A stretch of 36,757 nucleotides of DNA from Singulisphaera sp. GP187 (GTDB lineage Bacteria; Planctomycetota; UBA1135; UBA2386). The stretch covers positions 1 to 36,757 of the forward strand of contig CAMBXM010000019.1 of NCBI GenBank assembly GCA_945871815.1. Direction: 5' to 3'. The position numbers and the translations under genes were made by a program. The number at the start of each line of letters is the position of its first letter. Position 1 is the stretch's first letter. Positions 18,180 through 30,032 of this stretch are shown piece after piece. The notes beneath the pieces were generated by a model. That model ran no database searches, was not told where the DNA came from, and saw nothing but the letters and a program-made list of their open reading frames with translations.

Positions 18180-19967
18180 ATGCTGGTGTTGTCGTTGTTG
18201 ATCGCGCTCTGGCCTCAAGACCCTTCGGTCGCCGCCGTGCGTGTCGCGGAGCAACGCCGCGTCGAAGTCATTGCCCGGTGTGCTCCCGCCGTGTGTTCGG
18301 TGATGGACATGCAAGCCCCAGGCGGCGGCAGCGGCGTCGTGATCGACCCTCGCGGCTATGTGCTGACCAACTTCCACGTCATCGGTGGTGCCGACACCAA
18401 CGACAAGACGCCGAAGGACAAGGTGCTGCCCGCACCGCCGGCGCCGCCGGCCGAAGCCTTGCAGACCTTCAAGGCCGCCAATCCCGCAGCCAGCAGCGAA
18501 GACGAGAACCGATTCGTCAGCGACTGGCAGGACGCGTGGAAGCAGCAGCACTGGCCATCCGGCACGAACCACTGGCGCAACAAGAAGGTCGGTCTGCCGG
18601 ACGGCGAGCTCTATGAAGCCGTGGTGCTCGGTGTCGATCCCGGCAGCGATCTCGCGGTGCTGCGGCTGCTGCCAAAGCTCGACGGCCAAACCTGGCCCTG
18701 CTGCGAACTCGGCGATTCGGACGCGCTGCTCGTCGGCCAGACGGTGTTTGCCATGGGCAACCCGTTCTTGCTGGCGACCGATTTCACGCCGACGGTGACC
18801 TTTGGCATCGTCTCCGGCACGCATCGGTACCAGGAAGGCCAGGGCAATCGCATGCTGGTATATCCCGACTGCATCCAAGTCGATGCAGCGATCAATCCGG
18901 GCAACTCGGGGGGGCCGCTGTTCGACGAGGACGGCAAAGTCATCGGCATCAACGGCCGCATCTCGCTCGGGGATCGCGGTCGCGTCAACGTCGGCGTCGG
19001 CTTTGCGATCGCGTGCAATCAGGTGCGCAACTTCTTGCCCGACCTGCTCGCCGGTCGCCACGCGGAGCACGGCACGCTGGACCTGAGTGCCTGGTTCAAG
19101 AAGACGAAGAACGGCGACGAGCGGCACGGTGTCTTCGTGCAGCAGCTCTACAAGGACTCGGTCGCCGCGGTCGCTGGCATCAAGCTCGGCGACGAGATCG
19201 TGCACTTCCAAGGCGAAGATGTGCGTTCGGCCAACCAACTGGCGACGCGCATCGGCGTGTTGCCGGCGGGAGCCTGGATCGAACTCGGCTATCGCCCAGA
19301 GAACGTCGACAACAGCTTTGGCGACGAGCGCTTCGTCGACATCCGCTTGGCGCGTCTCGACACCGGCAGCAGCAAGGATGCGCGAACGGACACTGAGCGC
19401 CTGAGCAGTCTGATCGAACGGCAGCTCGCCACCAAGGCGATGAGGGCGCGCGCGACATCGCCCACGGCGCAGCGCACGGTCACACTCGCATTCGCGGACC
19501 GCGACGGCGCCAAGTGGTCGATAGTGCGCGACATGGCGCGCGAAGCCACCGCGATGGACCGCGATGGCGTGCGTTTCCTTCGCACGCGGAGTGAAGCCGA
19601 CCCCAATGTCGAAGGCGACGCGTTGCTGCAACGGCTCGTGCGCTGCAATCCACTGCTGTGGATCGGCTGTGATCGCGGCGAGCGGTTCGATGAGGCGCTT
19701 CTTCTCGGCGGCGTGCACGTGCTCGGCCGCCCGGCCTACCGCTACTCGCTCCCAGGCGACGGGGAACTCGAGTTCTTTCTGTTCGCCGACGGCAGTGCGG
19801 CGGGCTGTTCGCTGCGCGATCCCGTGCGCCGCGAGAAGCTCGAACTGCATTGCGATGGCAGCAGTGTTCGCGTCATCCGCGACGGCGTGTTCGACCGCGG
19901 TTGGCGAGTGGCGAGCTACGCGACCGACGTCCAAGTCGAAGACTCCGTGTTCGGGAGGCCGCAGTGA
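18180..19967 (+). CDS. HtrA-like trypsin-fold serine protease with PDZ domain, triad intact
   Basis: 595 residues from ATG 18180, preceded by GGAG at 18171-18174. The N-terminus is a short hydrophobic signal (MLVLSLLIALWPQ). The chymotrypsin-fold domain has GSGVVIDPRGYVLTNFHVI (His66), GSDLAVLRL (Asp157) and INPGNSGGPLFD (Ser243), so the catalytic triad is complete. Between His66 and Asp157 there are about 60 more residues than usual, an Ala/Pro-rich then Trp-rich segment (residues about 75-135). A PDZ domain follows at about 315-405 (GVFVQQLYKDSVAAVAGIKLGDEIVHF). The last 190 residues form a domain I do not recognise (ELEFFLFADGSAAGCSLRD). DegP/DegQ-type proteases degrade misfolded proteins in the periplasm, and this gene leads a trio whose other members are catalytically dead. 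GTGA overlap with the next gene. Confidence 0.92.
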   Translation: MLVLSLLIALWPQDPSVAAVRVAEQRRVEVIARCAPAVCSVMDMQAPGGGSGVVIDPRGYVLTNFHVIGGADTNDKTPKDKVLPAPPAPPAEALQTFKAANPAASSEDENRFVSDWQDAWKQQHWPSGTNHWRNKKVGLPDGELYEAVVLGVDPGSDLAVLRLLPKLDGQTWPCCELGDSDALLVGQTVFAMGNPFLLATDFTPTVTFGIVSGTHRYQEGQGNRMLVYPDCIQVDAAINPGNSGGPLFDEDGKVIGINGRISLGDRGRVNVGVGFAIACNQVRNFLPDLLAGRHAEHGTLDLSAWFKKTKNGDERHGVFVQQLYKDSVAAVAGIKLGDEIVHFQGEDVRSANQLATRIGVLPAGAWIELGYRPENVDNSFGDERFVDIRLARLDTGSSKDARTDTERLSSLIERQLATKAMRARATSPTAQRTVTLAFADRDGAKWSIVRDMAREATAMDRDGVRFLRTRSEADPNVEGDALLQRLVRCNPLLWIGCDRGERFDEALLLGGVHVLGRPAYRYSLPGDGELEFFLFADGSAAGCSLRDPVRREKLELHCDGSSVRVIRDGVFDRGWRVASYATDVQVEDSVFGRPQ

Positions 19968-21055
19968 AGAGGTACCTCGTTCTACTCCTGGCCCTGACAG
20001 ATCTCGCGGCGCAAGGGGAACCCAACTTGCCCGATGCAACGAAGCCGCCTGCGGAAGCGCAGTCCGCGGATGTGCACGCGAGCTACGCCTTTGCCGAGCG
20101 CGCGCCGGCGACCAAGGTCGAGAGCGCGATCGACCGGCTGCTGCCGAGCATCGTCAAGGTGCACGGCGCCTCAGGCCTCTCGACGATCACTCCGTACGCG
20201 ACGGGCATCGTCGTCAGTGCGAAGGGTCACGTGCTGACGTTGGACCAAGTGTTGGTGCAAAAGGAACGGACGCGTGTGGTGCTCTACGACGGTTCGGTGC
20301 ACGACGCACAAGTGCTGCCCGAGGACGGCAAACTCGGCGTGCGTCTGCTCAAGATCGACCCGGAGCAATGCCAGGGTCTGCTGCACCCGATCTGGCCCGA
20401 CGAGAGCGATGCGCCGCTCTACCGGACCGGCGATTTCGTCGTGTCGCTTGGCAACTGTTTCCGCCTTGCGGAGTTCTCCGAGAAGGTCTCAGCGACGTTC
20501 GGCATCGTGGTGGGCAGGGCCAACACGGCATTGCGCTTTCGTCTCGCCGACGTGCAGTACGACGGCGATCTGATCCTGACTGACGCGTGCAACAACCCGG
20601 GCCACTACGGCGGCGGGCTATTTGCTCTCGACGGCCGTTGGATCGGCTTCAACATGCGATTGCTCGAGAGCAAGGAGACCAACACGATGCTGTCGGCTGC
20701 GATTCCGTCGCGCGATCTGCTGCCGTACCTGCGCGAGCACGTGAACGGCGATTTGCGCGAGGTGACCGAGAGCGATCGGCGCCCCGTGCGCACCGGCATC
20801 GTGTTGTTTCGCCAGGCTGGCCGGGCTTCGCCGCCCGCTTACGTCGACCGTGCAGAGCGCGATTCGCCGGCGGCGGCGATCGGGCTGCGTCCGGACGACC
20901 TGATCGTCCGCATCGGCGACTACTCGGTACGTAGCTGCAAGGAGTTCGACGACGTGCTGAAGAAGTTCGAACCGGGCGACAAGGTCATGCTGACCTGGAA
21001 GCGCGGCACCAAGGTGATGCAGAGAGACCTTGAACTCGCGGAGGACAAGCAATGA
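19964..21055 (+). CDS. HtrA-like pseudoprotease with PDZ domain (all triad residues lost)
   Basis: 363 residues from GTG 19964, overlapping the upstream TGA; the signal peptide KRYLVLLLALTDLAAQG starts here, which settles the start over the open frame further 5'. It aligns throughout with the protease encoded just upstream: TGIVVSAKGHVLTLDQVL in place of SGVVIDPRGYVLTNFHVI, and NNPGHYGGGLF in place of NPGNSGGPLF. At the catalytic His position there is Gln95, at the Asp position a Leu (GKLGVRLLKI), and at the Ser position Tyr215. A PDZ domain closes the protein (RDSPAAAIGLRPDDLIVRIGDYSV). It therefore cannot use the standard serine-protease mechanism. A substrate-binding, regulatory or scaffold role with the active paralogue is likely. 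ATGA overlap with the third member. Confidence 0.88.
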   Translation: MKRYLVLLLALTDLAAQGEPNLPDATKPPAEAQSADVHASYAFAERAPATKVESAIDRLLPSIVKVHGASGLSTITPYATGIVVSAKGHVLTLDQVLVQKERTRVVLYDGSVHDAQVLPEDGKLGVRLLKIDPEQCQGLLHPIWPDESDAPLYRTGDFVVSLGNCFRLAEFSEKVSATFGIVVGRANTALRFRLADVQYDGDLILTDACNNPGHYGGGLFALDGRWIGFNMRLLESKETNTMLSAAIPSRDLLPYLREHVNGDLREVTESDRRPVRTGIVLFRQAGRASPPAYVDRAERDSPAAAIGLRPDDLIVRIGDYSVRSCKEFDDVLKKFEPGDKVMLTWKRGTKVMQRDLELAEDKQ

Positions 21056-22209
21056 GGCGGTGGCTTGTTGCCGTCGTGCTCGGCGCTCTCGCGAGTGCGC
21101 AACAGCGCGCGGACCTCGACGAGTTCGTGCGTCTACAGCCCGTGCTCCGGGCGGCGGTCGAACACGCCGCGCCGTGGGTCGTGACGATCGAGACCTTTGG
21201 CGGCACGCGCCGAGTTCTGGGCGATGACGGGCCCGTCGACTCGACAGCTCCAGCGCAACCGCGACCGGTGCCGAAGCCGCCGGCCAATCCCGATCGCAAA
21301 GGCAACCTGCCGCTGAAGGACCCGGGCTTCCATCAATCGCAAGGCAAGAGCACGGGCCTGATCGTTGGCGCGGACGGCTGGATCCTGGTGTCGCGGTTCT
21401 GCCTCAACTACGACCCGACCACGATCCTGGTCGGTATTCCTGGCGGCGAGACCTTCCATGCGGTGCGGAAGGGCGAGGACACCAGCCGCGGTATGGCGCT
21501 GCTCAAGATCGAGGCAACGAGTCTGCCGGTTGCGCAACTGGTCGATCCGAAGGATGTGCGGGTCGGGCAGTGGGCGTTCGTGCTGGGCCGGACGTTCGCT
21601 AGCGACGAGCCGACGGTGCACTTCGGGATCGTCAGCGCCCAAAAGCGGCAGTTTGGTCGCGCCTTGCAGATTGACGCCTACACGTCACCCGCCAACTACG
21701 GCGGCGCGGTGGTCGACGTCGAGGGCAAGGTGCTGGGTCTCGCGGTGCCGTTGTCGCCATCGGGTCGCGATGCCGGTGTGGAGTGGTACGACTCGGGCAT
21801 CGGCTTTTGCTCGACGATCGCCGACATCCCAGAGCTGATCGAACGCATGAAGCAGGGCGAACGACTGCAGCGCGGTTGGCTCGGGGTCACGCTCGATCCG
21901 GCGCACTTGGGTCCTGGCGCGCGCCTGAGTGGCACGCCGAAAGATGGCGTCGCGGCACAGGCCGGGCTGCGCAAGGGCGATGTGATCGTCGACATCGACG
22001 GCATTGCGATCCGCAACGGTGCGCACCTGCAGATGTTGATCGGCGCACGCATGGCCGGCGACGCCGTGGGGATGCGCGTGCAGAAGAAGCGCGAAGACGC
22101 GCCGGTGTCGATGACGGTGCTATTGGCGGACCTTCCCGGGAGCGGCGACGTGGAGAACGGGCCAGTGGAGTTGCCGGCAGGTTTCCCGGTGCCGGAAGAG
22201 AAGAAGTAG
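21052..22209 (+). CDS. Second HtrA-like pseudoprotease with PDZ domain
   Basis: 385 residues from ATG 21052 (ATGA overlap), with a signal peptide MRRWLVAVVLGALASAQQ. A Pro-rich stretch near residues 60-95 precedes the chymotrypsin-like fold, STGLIVGADGWILVSRFCL. Aligned to the active protease upstream, the His position is Phe116, the Asp position is Gly (SRGMALLKI) and the Ser position is Tyr216 (SPANYGGAVVD). The PDZ domain is well preserved (GWLGVTLDP ... AAQAGLRKGDVIVDIDGIAI), and the tail is acidic and Pro-rich. Like its neighbour it should bind rather than cut substrates. It is the last gene of the long plus-strand operon; a hairpin and 227 non-coding bases follow. Confidence 0.88.
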   Translation: MRRWLVAVVLGALASAQQRADLDEFVRLQPVLRAAVEHAAPWVVTIETFGGTRRVLGDDGPVDSTAPAQPRPVPKPPANPDRKGNLPLKDPGFHQSQGKSTGLIVGADGWILVSRFCLNYDPTTILVGIPGGETFHAVRKGEDTSRGMALLKIEATSLPVAQLVDPKDVRVGQWAFVLGRTFASDEPTVHFGIVSAQKRQFGRALQIDAYTSPANYGGAVVDVEGKVLGLAVPLSPSGRDAGVEWYDSGIGFCSTIADIPELIERMKQGERLQRGWLGVTLDPAHLGPGARLSGTPKDGVAAQAGLRKGDVIVDIDGIAIRNGAHLQMLIGARMAGDAVGMRVQKKREDAPVSMTVLLADLPGSGDVENGPVELPAGFPVPEEKK

Positions 22210-22436: not shown

Positions 22437-24539
22437 ATGATCCTCGAGCAGTTGTATCTCGCGTGCCTCTCGCAGGCTTCCTACCTGCTCGGCGACGAGT
22501 CCACGGGCATTGCTGTGATCGTCGATCCGCGCCGCGACGTCGATGAGTACGTCGAGCGGGCCACGGCTCTTGGTCTGCGCATCGAGCACGTGCTGCTGAC
22601 GCACGTGCACGCTGACTTCGTGGCGGGCCATCTCGAACTGCAGCAACGCACGGGCGCCAAGATCCATCTCGGTGCTGGCGCACGGACTGACTTTGACTAC
22701 CAACCACTGACCGATGGCCAAGCGCTTCAGTTCGGCGCGCTGCGCATCGCCGTGCTGGCGACGCCGGGTCACACGCCGGAGAGCGTGTGCTTTGCCGTGT
22801 ACGATCTCGATCACGGCGACGAACCCGTCGCGGTGCTGACCGGCGACACCTTGTTCCTCGGTGATGTCGGCCGGCCCGACCTCATGGCTGCGAGCGGGGT
22901 GACGGCGCACGACCTCGCGCGAAGGCTGCACGCGTCGCTGCACGACAAGTTGTTGCGGTTGCCTGACGCCACGTTGGTCTACCCCGGGCACGGCGCCGGT
23001 TCTGCCTGTGGCAAGAACCTCAGCCAGGACCGCGTTTCGACCATCGGCGCACAGCGCACCGGCAACTGCATGCTGCGACCGATGAGCGCGCAAGAGTTCG
23101 TCGACCTGGCGGTGAAGGACCTACCACCGGCGCCAGCGTACTTCGCGCGGGCAGCAGCCAAGAACCGCGAGCAACTCCCGACGCTCGACTCGACCATCGC
23201 AACGCGCTTGCGACCGTTGTCGATGGCCGAGTTGCTCGATTGCCAGCAGCAGGGAATGACGGTGCTCGACGTGCGCAATCCCAATGCGTTGGCCGCCGGT
23301 TTTGTACGCGGGAGCATCCACATCGGACTCGATGGCCGCTTCGCGAGTTGGGTCGGCGCGCTTGTCGATGGCGCGCGTCCAATCGTCGTCATCGCCGATG
23401 TCGGCCGCGAACGCGAAGCCGTGATGCGGCTCTCTCGCATCGGCTTCGACCTCGTGCACGGAGTCCTCGCTGCACCTGAGGCGGCGGCGCTCGGGCGAGG
23501 TCGAGCATTGCCTCGCCTCATCCGCCTGCTGCCGCCGGCACTTGCCGCGGTGCTGGACGGGCCGGCACCGCCGCTCGTGGTCGACATTCGCGAAGCGGGT
23601 GAGCGCGCGCAGAACCACATCGCCGGCAGTGTGCACATCCCACTCGGCAGCCTCGGGTCGCGCATCGGCGAGTTGCCGCGCAACCGTTCGCTCGTGTTTC
23701 AATGTCAGAGCGGCTATCGCTCGACGATTGCTGCCACGATCGCGGTGCAGCACGGACACGAGCAACCCAGTGATCTTGAAGGCGGCATGGCCGGTTGGCT
23801 CGCCGCGTTTCCCCCGACTCATTCACGCACAGTGACGCCTGAGCATCCAAACCAAGAGCCCAAAATGGACACCTGCACCACGAGTGGCGGCATTCCGCGC
23901 ATCGGCGATCTCGCCCCCGACTTCACCGCGATTACGACCCACGGCGAACTCAACTTCAGCAAATGGCAGGACGGCAAATGGGTGATGCTGTTCAGCCACC
24001 CGGCCGATTTCACGCCGGTGTGCTCGACCGAGTTGACCGAGTTCCAAAGGCGCAGTGAAGAGTTCACCCTGCGCAACACCAAGCTCATCGGACTGAGCAT
24101 TGACTCGGTCCACAGTCACCTTGCGTGGATCGAGAACCTCGAGCACATCCTCGGTGTTGCCATCAAGTACCCGATGATCGCCGACCTCGACATGAAGGTC
24201 GCGATGGCCTACGGCATGCTGCATCCCGGCGCTTCGAGCACGGCGACCGTGCGCTCGGTCTTTCTGCTCGATCCCAAGCGGACGATTCGCGCGCTGGTCT
24301 ACTACCCAATGAGCGTCGGTCGCAGCTGCGACGAACTGCTGCGATTGCTCGACGGCCTGCAGATGTCAGAGAAGCACGGCTGTGCGATGCCGGTCAACTG
24401 GAAGCCGGGCGACAAGGTCATCGTGCCACCGCCAAAGACCATGGCCGAAGTCGCCGAGCGCAAGACGCACACGGAGTACGAACGGATCGACTTCTACCTC
24501 AACAAGCGCGATCTGCCGTTGGACAAGCTGCGCGGTTGA
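22437..24539 (+). CDS. Persulfide dioxygenase-like / rhodanese / rhodanese / 1-Cys peroxiredoxin fusion
   Basis: 700 residues in one uninterrupted frame from ATG 22437. Residues about 1-245 are an ETHE1/CstB-type metallo-beta-lactamase domain: THVHADF (His56, His58), TPGHTPES (His112), GDTLFLGDVGRPDL (Asp137) and YPGHG (His185). By family precedent it would oxidise glutathione persulfide or a similar low-molecular-weight persulfide to sulfite using one iron. Residues about 262-350 are a rhodanese domain with no Cys in the active-site loop (IADVGRERE). Residues about 375-465 are a second rhodanese with Cys423 in CQSGYRS. A linker (THSRTVTPEHPNQEPK) leads to a Prx6-type peroxiredoxin with PADFTPVC (peroxidatic Cys529) and the PVNWKPGDKVIVPPP arm. 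Met477 could be a secondary start for free peroxiredoxin, but no clear ribosome-binding site precedes it. No export signal is seen, so the protein is probably cytoplasmic. Confidence 0.93.
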   Translation: MILEQLYLACLSQASYLLGDESTGIAVIVDPRRDVDEYVERATALGLRIEHVLLTHVHADFVAGHLELQQRTGAKIHLGAGARTDFDYQPLTDGQALQFGALRIAVLATPGHTPESVCFAVYDLDHGDEPVAVLTGDTLFLGDVGRPDLMAASGVTAHDLARRLHASLHDKLLRLPDATLVYPGHGAGSACGKNLSQDRVSTIGAQRTGNCMLRPMSAQEFVDLAVKDLPPAPAYFARAAAKNREQLPTLDSTIATRLRPLSMAELLDCQQQGMTVLDVRNPNALAAGFVRGSIHIGLDGRFASWVGALVDGARPIVVIADVGREREAVMRLSRIGFDLVHGVLAAPEAAALGRGRALPRLIRLLPPALAAVLDGPAPPLVVDIREAGERAQNHIAGSVHIPLGSLGSRIGELPRNRSLVFQCQSGYRSTIAATIAVQHGHEQPSDLEGGMAGWLAAFPPTHSRTVTPEHPNQEPKMDTCTTSGGIPRIGDLAPDFTAITTHGELNFSKWQDGKWVMLFSHPADFTPVCSTELTEFQRRSEEFTLRNTKLIGLSIDSVHSHLAWIENLEHILGVAIKYPMIADLDMKVAMAYGMLHPGASSTATVRSVFLLDPKRTIRALVYYPMSVGRSCDELLRLLDGLQMSEKHGCAMPVNWKPGDKVIVPPPKTMAEVAERKTHTEYERIDFYLNKRDLPLDKLRG

Positions 24540-26131: not shown

Positions 26132-28627
26132 ATGGCGGCTCGCCTCCTCATCGCCAGTCTGTTGGTCACAGGCCTAGGCGCCCAAGAACGGCACTGGGCT
26201 TTCGTGCCGCCGGTTCGCCCCGCGGTGCCAAAGGTCGACCTCGCGACCCGAGCTGCGGACGACTGGTCCCGCAATGACGTCGATCGCTTCGTGCTTGCGC
26301 GTTCCACTGGTCGCGGTTTGTCGCCGTCGCCCGAGGCGTCTCGGGCTGAGTGGCTGCGGCGTGTAACCTTCGACCTCACCGGCTTGCCGCCGACTCTCGC
26401 CGACCTCGAGAGGTTTCAACTCGACGCGAGCAGCGATGCCCACGAACGCGTCGTGCAGCAGTTGCTCGCGTCGCCAGCGGCAGCCGAGGAGTCGACGCGC
26501 CTGTGGCTCGACCTTGCTCGCTATGCCGACACTCACGGCATGCAGCGCGATCAAGTGCGTTCGTTGTGGCGCTGGCGCGATTGGGTGCTCGACGCCCAGC
26601 TGGCGAACATGCCGTTTGATCGCTTCGTCACCGAACAACTCGCCGGCGACCTGTTGCAGAACGCGACCACCGCGCAGCGCATCGCCAGCGGGTTCTTGCG
26701 CAACAACCCGAGCTCCGACGAAGGCGGGCTGATCCCGGAGGAGTACCTCGTCCTCTATGCCAAGAGCCGAACCGACGCCTTTGGCACGGCCTTGCTCGGG
26801 TTGACGGTCGGCTGCGCGCAGTGCCACGACCACAAGTCGGATCCACTGTCGCAGCGCGACTACTACCGCTTGTCGGCTTACTTCGCGTCCTTCGCCGAGG
26901 CCGGCAACGATGGTGGGGACCTCGCGCCGGCGCCGGCGATCCCGGCGCCGCGGGTCCACGAAGTCGCCGAACGCCAGCGTCTCGATGCGGCGGTGATCGC
27001 TGCGCAGGCCGGGTTTGATGGCCTTGGGTGGCAACGGCTCGATCTCGCGGCCGTTGGCCCAACGCCGTTTGCAGCGCGCGACGATGGGTCCCTGGTGGCG
27101 ACCGGGGCGGTGCCGGAGCGCGCGGACTACGTGGTGCGCGCCACCGGTTCCTTTGCCGCGGTGCGTGCGCTGCGGCTTTCGGTCTTGCCCGACGACAGTC
27201 TGCCGGAACGCGGTCCAGGTCGCGCCGACAACGGCAACTTCGTGCTCTGTGAGCTTGCAGTGTTCGCCTCTGTCGAGGGCAAACCGCAGCGCATCGCGCT
27301 GGCGACCGCCGATGCCGACTACGCGCAAGAGGGCCACGAGCCAATGCGTGCAATCGACGGCGATGCGACCACCGGATGGGCTGTGCAAGGCCGGCACGAA
27401 CCGATGCACCTGCAGGTCGCATTTGCGGCGCCGTTGCCTGCAGCGACGACGACGATCGAAGTTCGTCTGTGCCACCAGTCGGTGCATGCGCGGCATCTCA
27501 TCGGTCGCTTCGCGATCCACGCAACTGCGGCGGAGTTGACGGCGCAGCCCGAGCGCCTGCGGGACGCGCTGCGGGCGCTCGCCGCGTTCGATGCTGCTCT
27601 GCCGCAGTGCATGGTCAGCGCGGACTTGGCTGAGCCAAGAGCCGTGCACGTGCTGCTGCGCGGGCGCTACGACCTGCACGGCGAACGCGTGACTCCCGGC
27701 ACGCCGAGCTTCTTGCCGCCGTTGCCGGCCTCGTTGCCAGCGGACCGTCGTGCGCTCGCCGCGTGGCTGTTCGATCGCGACCATCCGCTGACCGCGCGCG
27801 TCGCCGTCAACCGCATCTGGCAGCGCCATTTCGGGCGCGGGCTGGTCGCAACGCCGCACGACTTCGGCGTTCTCGGCGCGCGTCCCAGTCACGAAGCGCT
27901 GCTCGACTGGCTGGCCTGCGAGTTTCGCGACAGCGGCTTTGACGAGCGCCACCTGCACACTCTGCTGGTGACCTCGGCGACCTATCGACAGTCGTCGCGC
28001 GTGCAGCCCTTGCAGCTAGAGCGGGACCCCGACAACCTCTACCTGATGCGCATGCCGCGCCTTCGTCTGCCGGCCGAGTCGATTCGGGATCAGGCGCTGG
28101 CCATCGCCGGCTTGCTGGTGCCGACGATCGGTGGGCCGAGCGTGCGTATCTCGCAGCCGCCGGGCATCTGGGAGGCCGTCGCGTTTCCGGGCAGCAACAC
28201 CGAGCGCTACACGGCCGACACCGGCGACGCGCTGCATCGCCGCAGCCTCTACACGTTTTGGAAGCGCACGGCCCCGCCACCCCTCATGTCGATCTTCGAC
28301 GCGCCGGGTCGCGAGCACTGTGTGGTCGAACGCCAAGTGACCAACACGCCGCTGCAAGTTCTCGCCCTGTGGAACGACGAAGGCCTCGTCGAGGCGGCGC
28401 GCGCATTTGCCGAACGGTGTCTTGCGGCGAGCGACGATGACGTGGTTCGGGTGCACTTTGCCTTCCGCACCGTGCTGCAGCGCGAACCGACGACGGCGGA
28501 GACAGCGACCTGTCTTCGCCTGCTCGATCGGCACCCGACGCTGACGACAGCGACGGAGCAACTGACGGCGTGGACGGTGCTCACCAACCTGCTGTTGTCG
28601 CTCGACGAAGCGCTGCATCGCAACTGA
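26132..28627 (+). CDS. DUF1549/DUF1553 (PSD1-type) protein lacking the cytochrome domain
   Basis: 831 residues from ATG 26132, with a signal peptide (ARLLIASLLVTGLGAQ). The DUF1549 region covers about residues 45-250: WSRNDVDRFVLAR, LRRVTFDLTGLPPTLADLERF, WLDLARYADTHG, and the heme-like Cys motif VGCAQCHDHKSDPLSQRDYYRL (Cys228, Cys231, His232). Residues about 330-465 form a beta-rich insert resembling a discoidin-like fold (AIDGDATTGWAVQG). DUF1553 follows from about residue 535 (RRALAAWLFDRDHPLTARVAVNRIWQRHFGRGLV, here cited as RVAVNRIWQRHFGRGLV; LPAESIRDQALAIAGLL; PPPLMSIFDAPGREHC). The N-terminal planctomycete cytochrome C domain of longer relatives is missing. The biochemical role is not established; secretion and the DUF1501 partner one base downstream suggest extracytoplasmic function, perhaps in polysaccharide metabolism. 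Confidence 0.93.
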   Translation: MAARLLIASLLVTGLGAQERHWAFVPPVRPAVPKVDLATRAADDWSRNDVDRFVLARSTGRGLSPSPEASRAEWLRRVTFDLTGLPPTLADLERFQLDASSDAHERVVQQLLASPAAAEESTRLWLDLARYADTHGMQRDQVRSLWRWRDWVLDAQLANMPFDRFVTEQLAGDLLQNATTAQRIASGFLRNNPSSDEGGLIPEEYLVLYAKSRTDAFGTALLGLTVGCAQCHDHKSDPLSQRDYYRLSAYFASFAEAGNDGGDLAPAPAIPAPRVHEVAERQRLDAAVIAAQAGFDGLGWQRLDLAAVGPTPFAARDDGSLVATGAVPERADYVVRATGSFAAVRALRLSVLPDDSLPERGPGRADNGNFVLCELAVFASVEGKPQRIALATADADYAQEGHEPMRAIDGDATTGWAVQGRHEPMHLQVAFAAPLPAATTTIEVRLCHQSVHARHLIGRFAIHATAAELTAQPERLRDALRALAAFDAALPQCMVSADLAEPRAVHVLLRGRYDLHGERVTPGTPSFLPPLPASLPADRRALAAWLFDRDHPLTARVAVNRIWQRHFGRGLVATPHDFGVLGARPSHEALLDWLACEFRDSGFDERHLHTLLVTSATYRQSSRVQPLQLERDPDNLYLMRMPRLRLPAESIRDQALAIAGLLVPTIGGPSVRISQPPGIWEAVAFPGSNTERYTADTGDALHRRSLYTFWKRTAPPPLMSIFDAPGREHCVVERQVTNTPLQVLALWNDEGLVEAARAFAERCLAASDDDVVRVHFAFRTVLQREPTTAETATCLRLLDRHPTLTTATEQLTAWTVLTNLLLSLDEALHRN

Positions 28628-28628
28628 C

Positions 28629-30032
28629 ATGGACGCACCCGTAACGGACCGCAGGACGTTCTTGGCGAGGTCCGTGTTCGCGACGGCAGGCGCCGCATTC
28701 TTCGGACTGGGCGATGAGCCACGGCGATTGCCGCACTTTGCCGCGCGCGCGCGCCGCGTGATCTACCTGCACATGTCGGGCGGACCTTCGCAGCACGACC
28801 TGTTTGACCACAAGCCAGAACTGGCGCGCTGGCACGGATCTGACTTGCCGGACTCGGTGCGACAAGGCCAACGCATCACGACGATGACCTCGAGTCAGAA
28901 GCGACTTCGCATCGTCAACACGCGGCGCGCCTTCGCGCAACGGGGGCGGTGCGGCGCGTGGATCAGCGACTTGCTGCCGTTCACGGCCCAAGTCATCGAT
29001 GAACTGGCGATCGTGCGTTCGATGCATACCGACGCCATCAACCACGAACCGGCGATCAATCTGCTGCAGACCGGTTCAGAGCAGTCGGGGCGCCCGAGCT
29101 TTGGTGCGTGGCTCGCGTGGGCGATGGGCAGCGAGGCGCGCGACTTGCCTGCCTTTGTCGTGCTGCACTCCTCATGGAGCGGGCCCAAGGTCGATCAGCC
29201 GCTCTATCACCGATTGTGGGGCGCAGGCTTTCTGCCGGCAGAGCACCAGGGGGTGTTGCTGCGCGGTCAGGGCGATCCCGTGCTGTTCTTGCAGAACCCA
29301 GCCGGCATCACGCGTGCGAGCCGCGGCCAGCAACTCGCAGCGATGGCCGAACTCAACGCGGCAGCTCACGAGCGCTATCTCGATCCCGGCATCGCGGCGC
29401 GGCAGCAGCAAGCGGAGTTGGCGTTCCGCATGCAGATGGCGGTGCCAGAACTCGTCGCGTTCGAGTCCGAGCCGGAGCACGTTCGTGCGCTCTATGGCCA
29501 GGAGGTGATGACGCGGGGCACGTTTGCCAACAATGCGCTGATGGCGCGGCGACTGCTGGAGCGCGGCGTGCGCTGCGTCCAGATCTACCATCGCGGTTGG
29601 GATCAACACCGCAACCTGGATTTGGACCTGCCGCGGCAGTGCGCGGACATCGATCGTGCGACGGCGGCGCTGCTGATCGACCTCCGCCAGCGCGGCATGC
29701 TCGACGACACGCTGGTGGTCTGGACCAGCGAGTTCGGTCGGACGGTCTACGCCCAGGGCGAGCTCGAGGACGGTAGCTTCGGCCGCGACCATCATCCGCG
29801 CTGTTTCGTCACCTGGCTTGCGGGCGGCGGCGTGCGCGCGGGGGCTCAGGTCGGAGCCACCGATGAACTGGGCTACAACGTGGTCGCCGACCCGGTGCAC
29901 GTGCACGACCTCAACGCGACCTTGCTGCACTTGCTCGGCTTCGATCACGAACGGCTGACGTTTCGTTACGAGGGTCGCGAGTTTCGACTCACCGACGTGC
30001 ACGGTCGCGTCGTGCGTGCTGTGCTGTCGTGA
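28629..30032 (+). CDS. DUF1501 protein with Tat signal
   Basis: 467 residues from ATG 28629, one base after the stop of the DUF1549/DUF1553 gene, so the two are surely co-transcribed. The N-terminus carries a twin-arginine export motif (TDRRTFLARS, then VFATAGAAFFGLG), meaning export in folded form. The rest is typical DUF1501, a sulfatase/alkaline-phosphatase-like fold: VIYLHMSGGPSQHDLFDHKP, LAIVRSMHTDAINHEPA, RPSFGAWLAWAMG, GVRCVQIYHRGWDQH, TLVVWTSEFGRT and FGRDHHPRCFVTWLAGGGV. His and Asp residues at GPSQHDLFD, SEFGRT and GRDHHP fit the metal-binding sites of that superfamily. The substrate is unknown. Such pairs with DUF1549/DUF1553 occur in many copies in planctomycete genomes. Confidence 0.94.
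   Translation: MDAPVTDRRTFLARSVFATAGAAFFGLGDEPRRLPHFAARARRVIYLHMSGGPSQHDLFDHKPELARWHGSDLPDSVRQGQRITTMTSSQKRLRIVNTRRAFAQRGRCGAWISDLLPFTAQVIDELAIVRSMHTDAINHEPAINLLQTGSEQSGRPSFGAWLAWAMGSEARDLPAFVVLHSSWSGPKVDQPLYHRLWGAGFLPAEHQGVLLRGQGDPVLFLQNPAGITRASRGQQLAAMAELNAAAHERYLDPGIAARQQQAELAFRMQMAVPELVAFESEPEHVRALYGQEVMTRGTFANNALMARRLLERGVRCVQIYHRGWDQHRNLDLDLPRQCADIDRATAALLIDLRQRGMLDDTLVVWTSEFGRTVYAQGELEDGSFGRDHHPRCFVTWLAGGGVRAGAQVGATDELGYNVVADPVHVHDLNATLLHLLGFDHERLTFRYEGREFRLTDVHGRVVRAVLS

Follow-up and report, generated by a model that had tools for sequence, protein, structure and literature searches.

In the 36,757-nucleotide stretch of planctomycete DNA analysed here (the window), a single open reading frame at 22437-24539 (+; 700 aa, ATG start) encodes a persulfide dioxygenase-rhodanese fusion of the CstB type (PRF) followed in frame by a Prx6-type peroxiredoxin (Prx), and Prx6-type genes were found to adjoin PRF genes in at least ten genomes besides that of the window, often within sulfide-oxidation clusters that also hold SQR and TauE. 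This gene linkage is a stronger result than the fusion itself, which was seen once, in a fragmented assembly of 87.6% completeness. The history to which we give about an even chance, together with the H2S-linked mechanism proposed below, is that an ancestral pair of PRF and Prx6-type genes lost the stop of the PRF together with part of the DNA between the genes, and now forms one frame.

The two halves of the open reading frame

The given sequence has no stop codon inside the 700-aa frame, and all of the Pfam matches to its translation lie above the curated cut-offs: Lactamase_B at residues 11-185, two Rhodanese stretches (the best at 375-456), AhpC-TSA at 489-619 and 1-cysPrx_C at 640-672. 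A reading made from the letters alone (the sequence-only reading) had assigned a persulfide dioxygenase, two rhodaneses and a peroxiredoxin to this one frame and had pointed to Cys423 and Cys529 as the rhodanese and peroxiredoxin cysteines; the open reading frame and the Pfam domains confirm the first claim, and both cysteines are at the positions given, Cys423 being invariant across 64 PRF homologues and Cys529 across 42 Prx homologues.

Judged by its sequence, the stretch of residues 1-457 is a PRF of the CstB/3TP9 type, with an inactive and then an active rhodanese fold, and is predicted to carry out the oxygen-dependent oxidation of persulfides to sulfite or thiosulfate. In the CstB reaction as described in the literature, the dioxygenase oxidises the persulfide to sulfite, and the rhodanese can join sulfite and sulfane sulfur to give thiosulfate. 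The persulfide dioxygenase domain (PDO; metallo-beta-lactamase fold) occupies 22437-23186 (+; residues 1 to about 250), as delimited by Pfam, alignment and fold. H56, H58, D60, H112, D137, H185 and C191 of this domain are conserved in the alignment of PRF homologues, and the persulfide dioxygenase residues (HxHxD, H112, D137 and H185) are kept in 62-64 of the 64. The model of the domain has a pLDDT of about 90, and its top fold matches in the PDB are 3tp9 and 3r2u; the full-length model was built from PRF alignment rows only, and its Prx half is unreliable. For residues 1-457, the fold comparison with 3tp9 gives a TMt of 0.86 and 35% identity. At the sequence level, 3tp9 covers residues 1-457 end to end (E = 7e-71), and the alignment with 3r2u of S. 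aureus reaches residue 442.

The middle rhodanese-fold domain (23208-23501, +; approximate limits from Pfam, PDB alignment and fold) reads '...IVVIADVGRE...' and has no cysteine in its active site, as is the case for the same domain of 3r2u and 3tp9. The C-terminal domain (23520-23807, +; Pfam and homologue alignment) is a rhodanese of the active type with the loop CQSGYRS, in which Cys423 is encoded at 23703-23705. The two rhodaneses noted earlier are thus borne out as two folds, but not as two active enzymes, the catalytic cysteine being present in the second one only; one active and one inactive fold is the ordinary CstB layout and constitutes no novelty.

CstB of Staphylococcus aureus (3r2u) and the Alicyclobacillus protein 3tp9 share with residues 1-457 the order of PDO, inactive rhodanese fold and active rhodanese. 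CstB, however, terminates at the rhodanese, whereas the frame in the window continues for 243 residues beyond it with the peroxiredoxin; because related PRFs likewise carry extra C-terminal domains, this extension does not disqualify the protein from the CstB/PRF group. The Burkholderia phytofirmans PRF (5ve3-5ve5) also joins a PDO to a catalytic rhodanese, but it has a single rhodanese and no Prx, and is a weaker match. In Blh (a bifunctional sulfurtransferase/dioxygenase) and other PDO fusions, the PDO is again fused to sulfur-handling domains, although the arrangement of Blh differs from that in the window and the NCBIfam Blh model gives 51 bits, short of its cut-off of 625.

Residues 477-700 (23865-24539, +, with their own ATG) are, on the sequence criteria that follow, a complete Prx6-type peroxiredoxin. 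This half has the AhpC/TSA fold and a 1-cysPrx_C domain (NCBIfam PRK13189, 264 bits versus a cut-off of 211), and when modelled apart it reached a pLDDT of 89; its closest PDB match is 5ovq (E = 1e-61), and human PRDX6 (1prx) matches with E = 9e-41. The peroxidatic C529 (24021-24023), within the motif PxxFTPVC, and H521 (23997-23999), the equivalent of His39 of Prx6, are both invariant in the alignments of Prx homologues. The fold, the motif HPxDFTPVC with the His39 equivalent and the 1-cysPrx_C domain are shared with 5ovq, human PRDX6 and Plasmodium PfPrx6, but these known enzymes are stand-alone proteins, whereas the one in the window follows a PRF in frame. It further differs from them by an extra cysteine, C649 (24381-24383), which lies near the position of the resolving cysteine (CPxxW) of 2-Cys enzymes and is found in 16 of the 42 homologues; in 10 of the 42, a cysteine occurs two residues beyond this position. 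The Prx half therefore likely works by a 1-Cys mechanism, as had been read from the letters, with C649 leaving the label uncertain. Among the homologues, the second cysteine of the C-terminal domain shifts in place (CAxPVNW, VACPVNW, CACPVNW or none), a pattern that looks like an interchange of 1-Cys and 2-Cys forms inside one Prx clade.

The junction and the closest relative

The two halves are joined by a linker of 57 nt, FPPTHSRTVTPEHPNQEPK (23808-23864, +), that is not coding-like: its GC3 is 0.47, compared with about 0.80 in the genes of the contig, and its score of -8.9 bits falls within the lowest 0.5% when set against 8,032 coding windows of 19 codons each. Translated, the linker gives a hydrophilic sequence rich in proline. 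The Prx retains its own Met at the same place where Prx homologues begin, and AAGAG, a weak Shine-Dalgarno-like remnant, lies at 23854-23858 (+), 6 nt before this internal ATG at 23865.

In G045, the closest relative, from a different family within the order, two genes encode the two proteins: the PRF gene ends with TAG and is followed, after 43 nt and in a different frame, by the ATG of the Prx gene, which is preceded by AAGGAG. The TAG corresponds in part to what the sequence-only reading had named as evidence against itself, namely that close relatives make the two proteins separately, a stop codon lying at the junction. The two genomes share 59% identity in the PRF and 72% in the Prx, and they are sisters in both trees (SH-aLRT 97 for the PRF and 80 for the Prx), so the order of PRF and then Prx probably predates their split. 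The linker segment at 23817-23848 (+) matches the G045 leader, the untranslated DNA that separates the PRF stop from the Prx start (shuffle P about 0.001); the likeness is confined to this segment, and the final 20 nt before the Prx ATG have no significant likeness (P 0.49). The simplest history suggested by these comparisons is that the stop was lost within the intergenic stretch of a tandem PRF and Prx pair.

The search for a second fusion covered about 860 genomes from the phylum (154 covering both the order and the class as one set, 392 from an even draw of the phylum and 398 from another class of the phylum) and, by tblastn, 72,556 plasmids; phyla outside that of the window were covered by the plasmids and by one short-pattern scan of genome contigs. 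A second fused PRF-Prx frame was found in none of these genomes, plasmids and scanned contigs, and a close copy of the fused gene is absent from the two other genomes of the genus in the set. Nor did we find a publication on a PRF-Prx fusion or operon. The four-domain protein noted earlier stands as a reading of the domains, but no other genome searched has it as a fusion, and the nearest relative has two genes. Two kinds of candidate were rejected: the match in G695 (1-691) contains three stops and represents a tandem pair, and the long open frames that run across Prx and PRF in L084 and L085 read the Prx gene out of its own frame.

The fusion could instead be an assembly or sequencing error, the true genome having a PRF that ends at 23833-23835 or 23840-23842 and a Prx that starts at 23865, as separate partners that may still cooperate. 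Just 5' of two TGAs in other frames is a CCCCC run (23811-23815, +), where the gain or loss of a single base would yield two genes, with the PRF ending ...FPRLIHAQ at the TGA of frame +1 (23833-23835, +) or ...SPDSFTHSDA at the TGA of frame +2 (23840-23842, +). The segments in these alternative frames are more coding-like (-0.4 and -0.9 bits) than those in frame 0 (-7.0 and -7.8 bits), and a stop at either TGA would fit the tails of PRF homologues without an added domain, which extend at most 21 residues beyond the GGxxxW motif in the 64-homologue alignment. The two genes of G045 and the lack of a fusion in about 860 other genomes point in the same direction. However, codon statistics do not separate an indel error from a recent fusion, because a recently untranslated linker would look alike under both, and no other broken gene was found among the genes examined in the 36.7-kb contig, which speaks against frequent errors and makes an indel in so short a stretch unlikely a priori. 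In short, error retains a considerable minority share of the probability, a real and recent stop-loss fusion is somewhat more likely than error in the sequence, and our confidence that the fused frame is real in the genome is about two in three. The fusion is plausible and, if real, unique among the genomes searched, young and lineage-specific.

Linkage of PRF and Prx6-type genes and its proposed function

The arrangement of the linked genes varies among genomes. Within the window's order, the Prx6-type gene immediately precedes a CstB-type PRF gene in G126, G050, G111, G110, G130, G024 and G016, is convergent to the PRF gene in G014 and G027, adjoins a PDO-rhodanese gene in G026 and is downstream of the PRF gene in G045. 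In G695, a single-contig genome of another class, the genes run PRF, Prx, DUF1641 and SQR-like. By a rough estimate, the probability that two genes are adjacent by chance in a genome of 4-10 Mb is about one in a thousand per genome. Two Prx clades take part in the linkage: a distant one, with 44-52% identity to the Prx of the window, is the usual operon partner, and most members of the window's own clade (orthologues with 65-76% identity) stand alone. As two clades are involved, the association of PRF and Prx6-type genes seems to have arisen repeatedly, and the linkage suggests that the two proteins work together. Within the window's genome, an SQR of the linked type was not found, and the genes flanking the fused frame in the window (serine proteases and PPK2) include no sulfur genes.

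Clusters for sulfide oxidation that include a Prx6-type gene recur at L081, L082, L083, L084, L085 and L104; the genes that take part are those for a sigma-54 activator, Prx, PRF, an SQR-like protein and TauE. A sigma-54 activator is upstream in L081 and L084, and an SQR-like flavoprotein and/or TauE is downstream in L081, L082, L083 and L085. The SQR-like proteins align with the full length of the type III SQR model at 217-241 bits, below its cut-off of 525, and hence SQR-like is the safe name for them. The CstB gene itself shares an operon with sqr and tauE (PMC5480029).

Published work on Prx6-type enzymes bears on what such a partnership could do. The oxidised forms of PfPrx6 and human PRDX6 are reduced by HS- to a hydropersulfide with a rate constant above 1e8 per M per s, in a reaction that needs His39; the hydropersulfide is reduced by neither thioredoxin nor glutaredoxin/GSH, and a second HS- acts on it slowly (PMC12697902). 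The same 2025 study regarded HS- as the likely universal donor for Prx6-type enzymes, and its authors raised a possible requirement for a partner (PMC12697902). Sulfide raises the expression of a Rhodobacter capsulatus peroxiredoxin gene more than 10-fold, and transsulfuration has been proposed as its role (PMC9995734); a cyanobacterial peroxiredoxin reduces S8 (PMC9426444).

From the domains, the residues and the linkage, taken with this chemistry, the protein in the window would likely function as a peroxidase driven by H2S, with the PRF clearing the persulfide that forms. Most likely the fused protein would be made, along with some free Prx translated from the internal ATG at 23865. C529 would reduce H2O2 or an organic peroxide and become a sulfenic acid, which HS- would convert to the C529 hydropersulfide; the sulfane sulfur could then move from one half to the other, to Cys423 of the rhodanese, or to a low-molecular-weight thiol. 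The resulting persulfide would be oxidised to sulfite by the dioxygenase, and the rhodanese could combine sulfite with sulfane sulfur to give thiosulfate. The HS- step and the CstB reaction in this scheme come from the literature, whereas translation of the fusion, sulfur transfer between the halves and the physiological role are what we infer. More speculatively, as an SQR of the linked type was not found in the genome, the Prx may supply the PDO locally with some of its persulfide by peroxide-driven oxidation of sulfide. The earlier suggestion that the sulfur chemistry serves the peroxiredoxin finds good support in the recurrent PRF-Prx6 linkage and in the published reduction by HS- (PMC12697902).

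A true fusion in the DNA could also have left the Prx as a passenger, with no sulfur transfer and with each half doing its usual job, that is, oxidation of sulfane sulfur and removal of peroxide with an ordinary thiol. The close Prx orthologues that mostly stand apart from PRF genes, the potential of C649 to be a resolving cysteine and so permit a thioredoxin route, and the lack of an SQR-type gene among those found in the window's genome all fit such a passenger. We nevertheless consider it unlikely: the adjacency of Prx6-type and PRF genes recurs in varied arrangements, together with SQR and TauE, and thioredoxin and glutaredoxin/GSH fail on the Prx6-type hydropersulfide, while HS- reacts fast (PMC12697902). 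An old, selected four-domain enzyme with tuned linker and packing is very improbable, since the low GC3 and poor coding score of the linker, its alignment with the untranslated leader DNA of G045 and the lack of a second example in the genomes and plasmids searched outweigh the hydrophilic, proline-rich composition that it has in common with flexible linkers.

The H2S-driven peroxidase could be generalised, in a rather doubtful further step, to PRFs as the missing resolving partners of Prx6-type enzymes, the rhodanese taking the sulfane sulfur and the PDO burning it to sulfite or thiosulfate. If this is true, peroxide and sulfide would be cleared together by one gene pair and, in the window, by one polypeptide. 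The physiological reductant of Prx6-type peroxiredoxins is disputed, and the recurrent pairs make the PRF a concrete candidate partner, so that the partner question becomes testable with two purified proteins.

Other PRF variants and neighbouring genes

PRFs accept various C-terminal additions, including a third rhodanese, a radical SAM protein and a sulfite oxidase. In a Solirubrobacterales metagenome-assembled genome (JAFAPR010000239.1, L055:4001-6532, +), a PRF is in frame with a molybdenum sulfite oxidase (PF00174 and PF03404; 844 aa in total), which would join the sulfite-making dioxygenase to an enzyme that would oxidise sulfite to sulfate. In G052 (L003:316-2901, -), one frame of 862 aa runs from a PRF into a radical SAM and SPASM protein, which may be a fusion or reflect a missing stop. 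A second PRF clade is common in the window's family, with a copy in the window's own genome (G000:C113:2788-4161). Its members L022-L030 have a third rhodanese domain, and the three of them read to the end, L022, L025 and L030, terminate in ...KRSAGC.

Elsewhere in the window, three successive genes for trypsin-like proteases, the last two with PDZ domains, lie at 18180-22209, and a pair of DUF1549/DUF1553 and DUF1501 genes, typical of Planctomycetota and so suggestive of the window's phylum, is found at 26132-30032.
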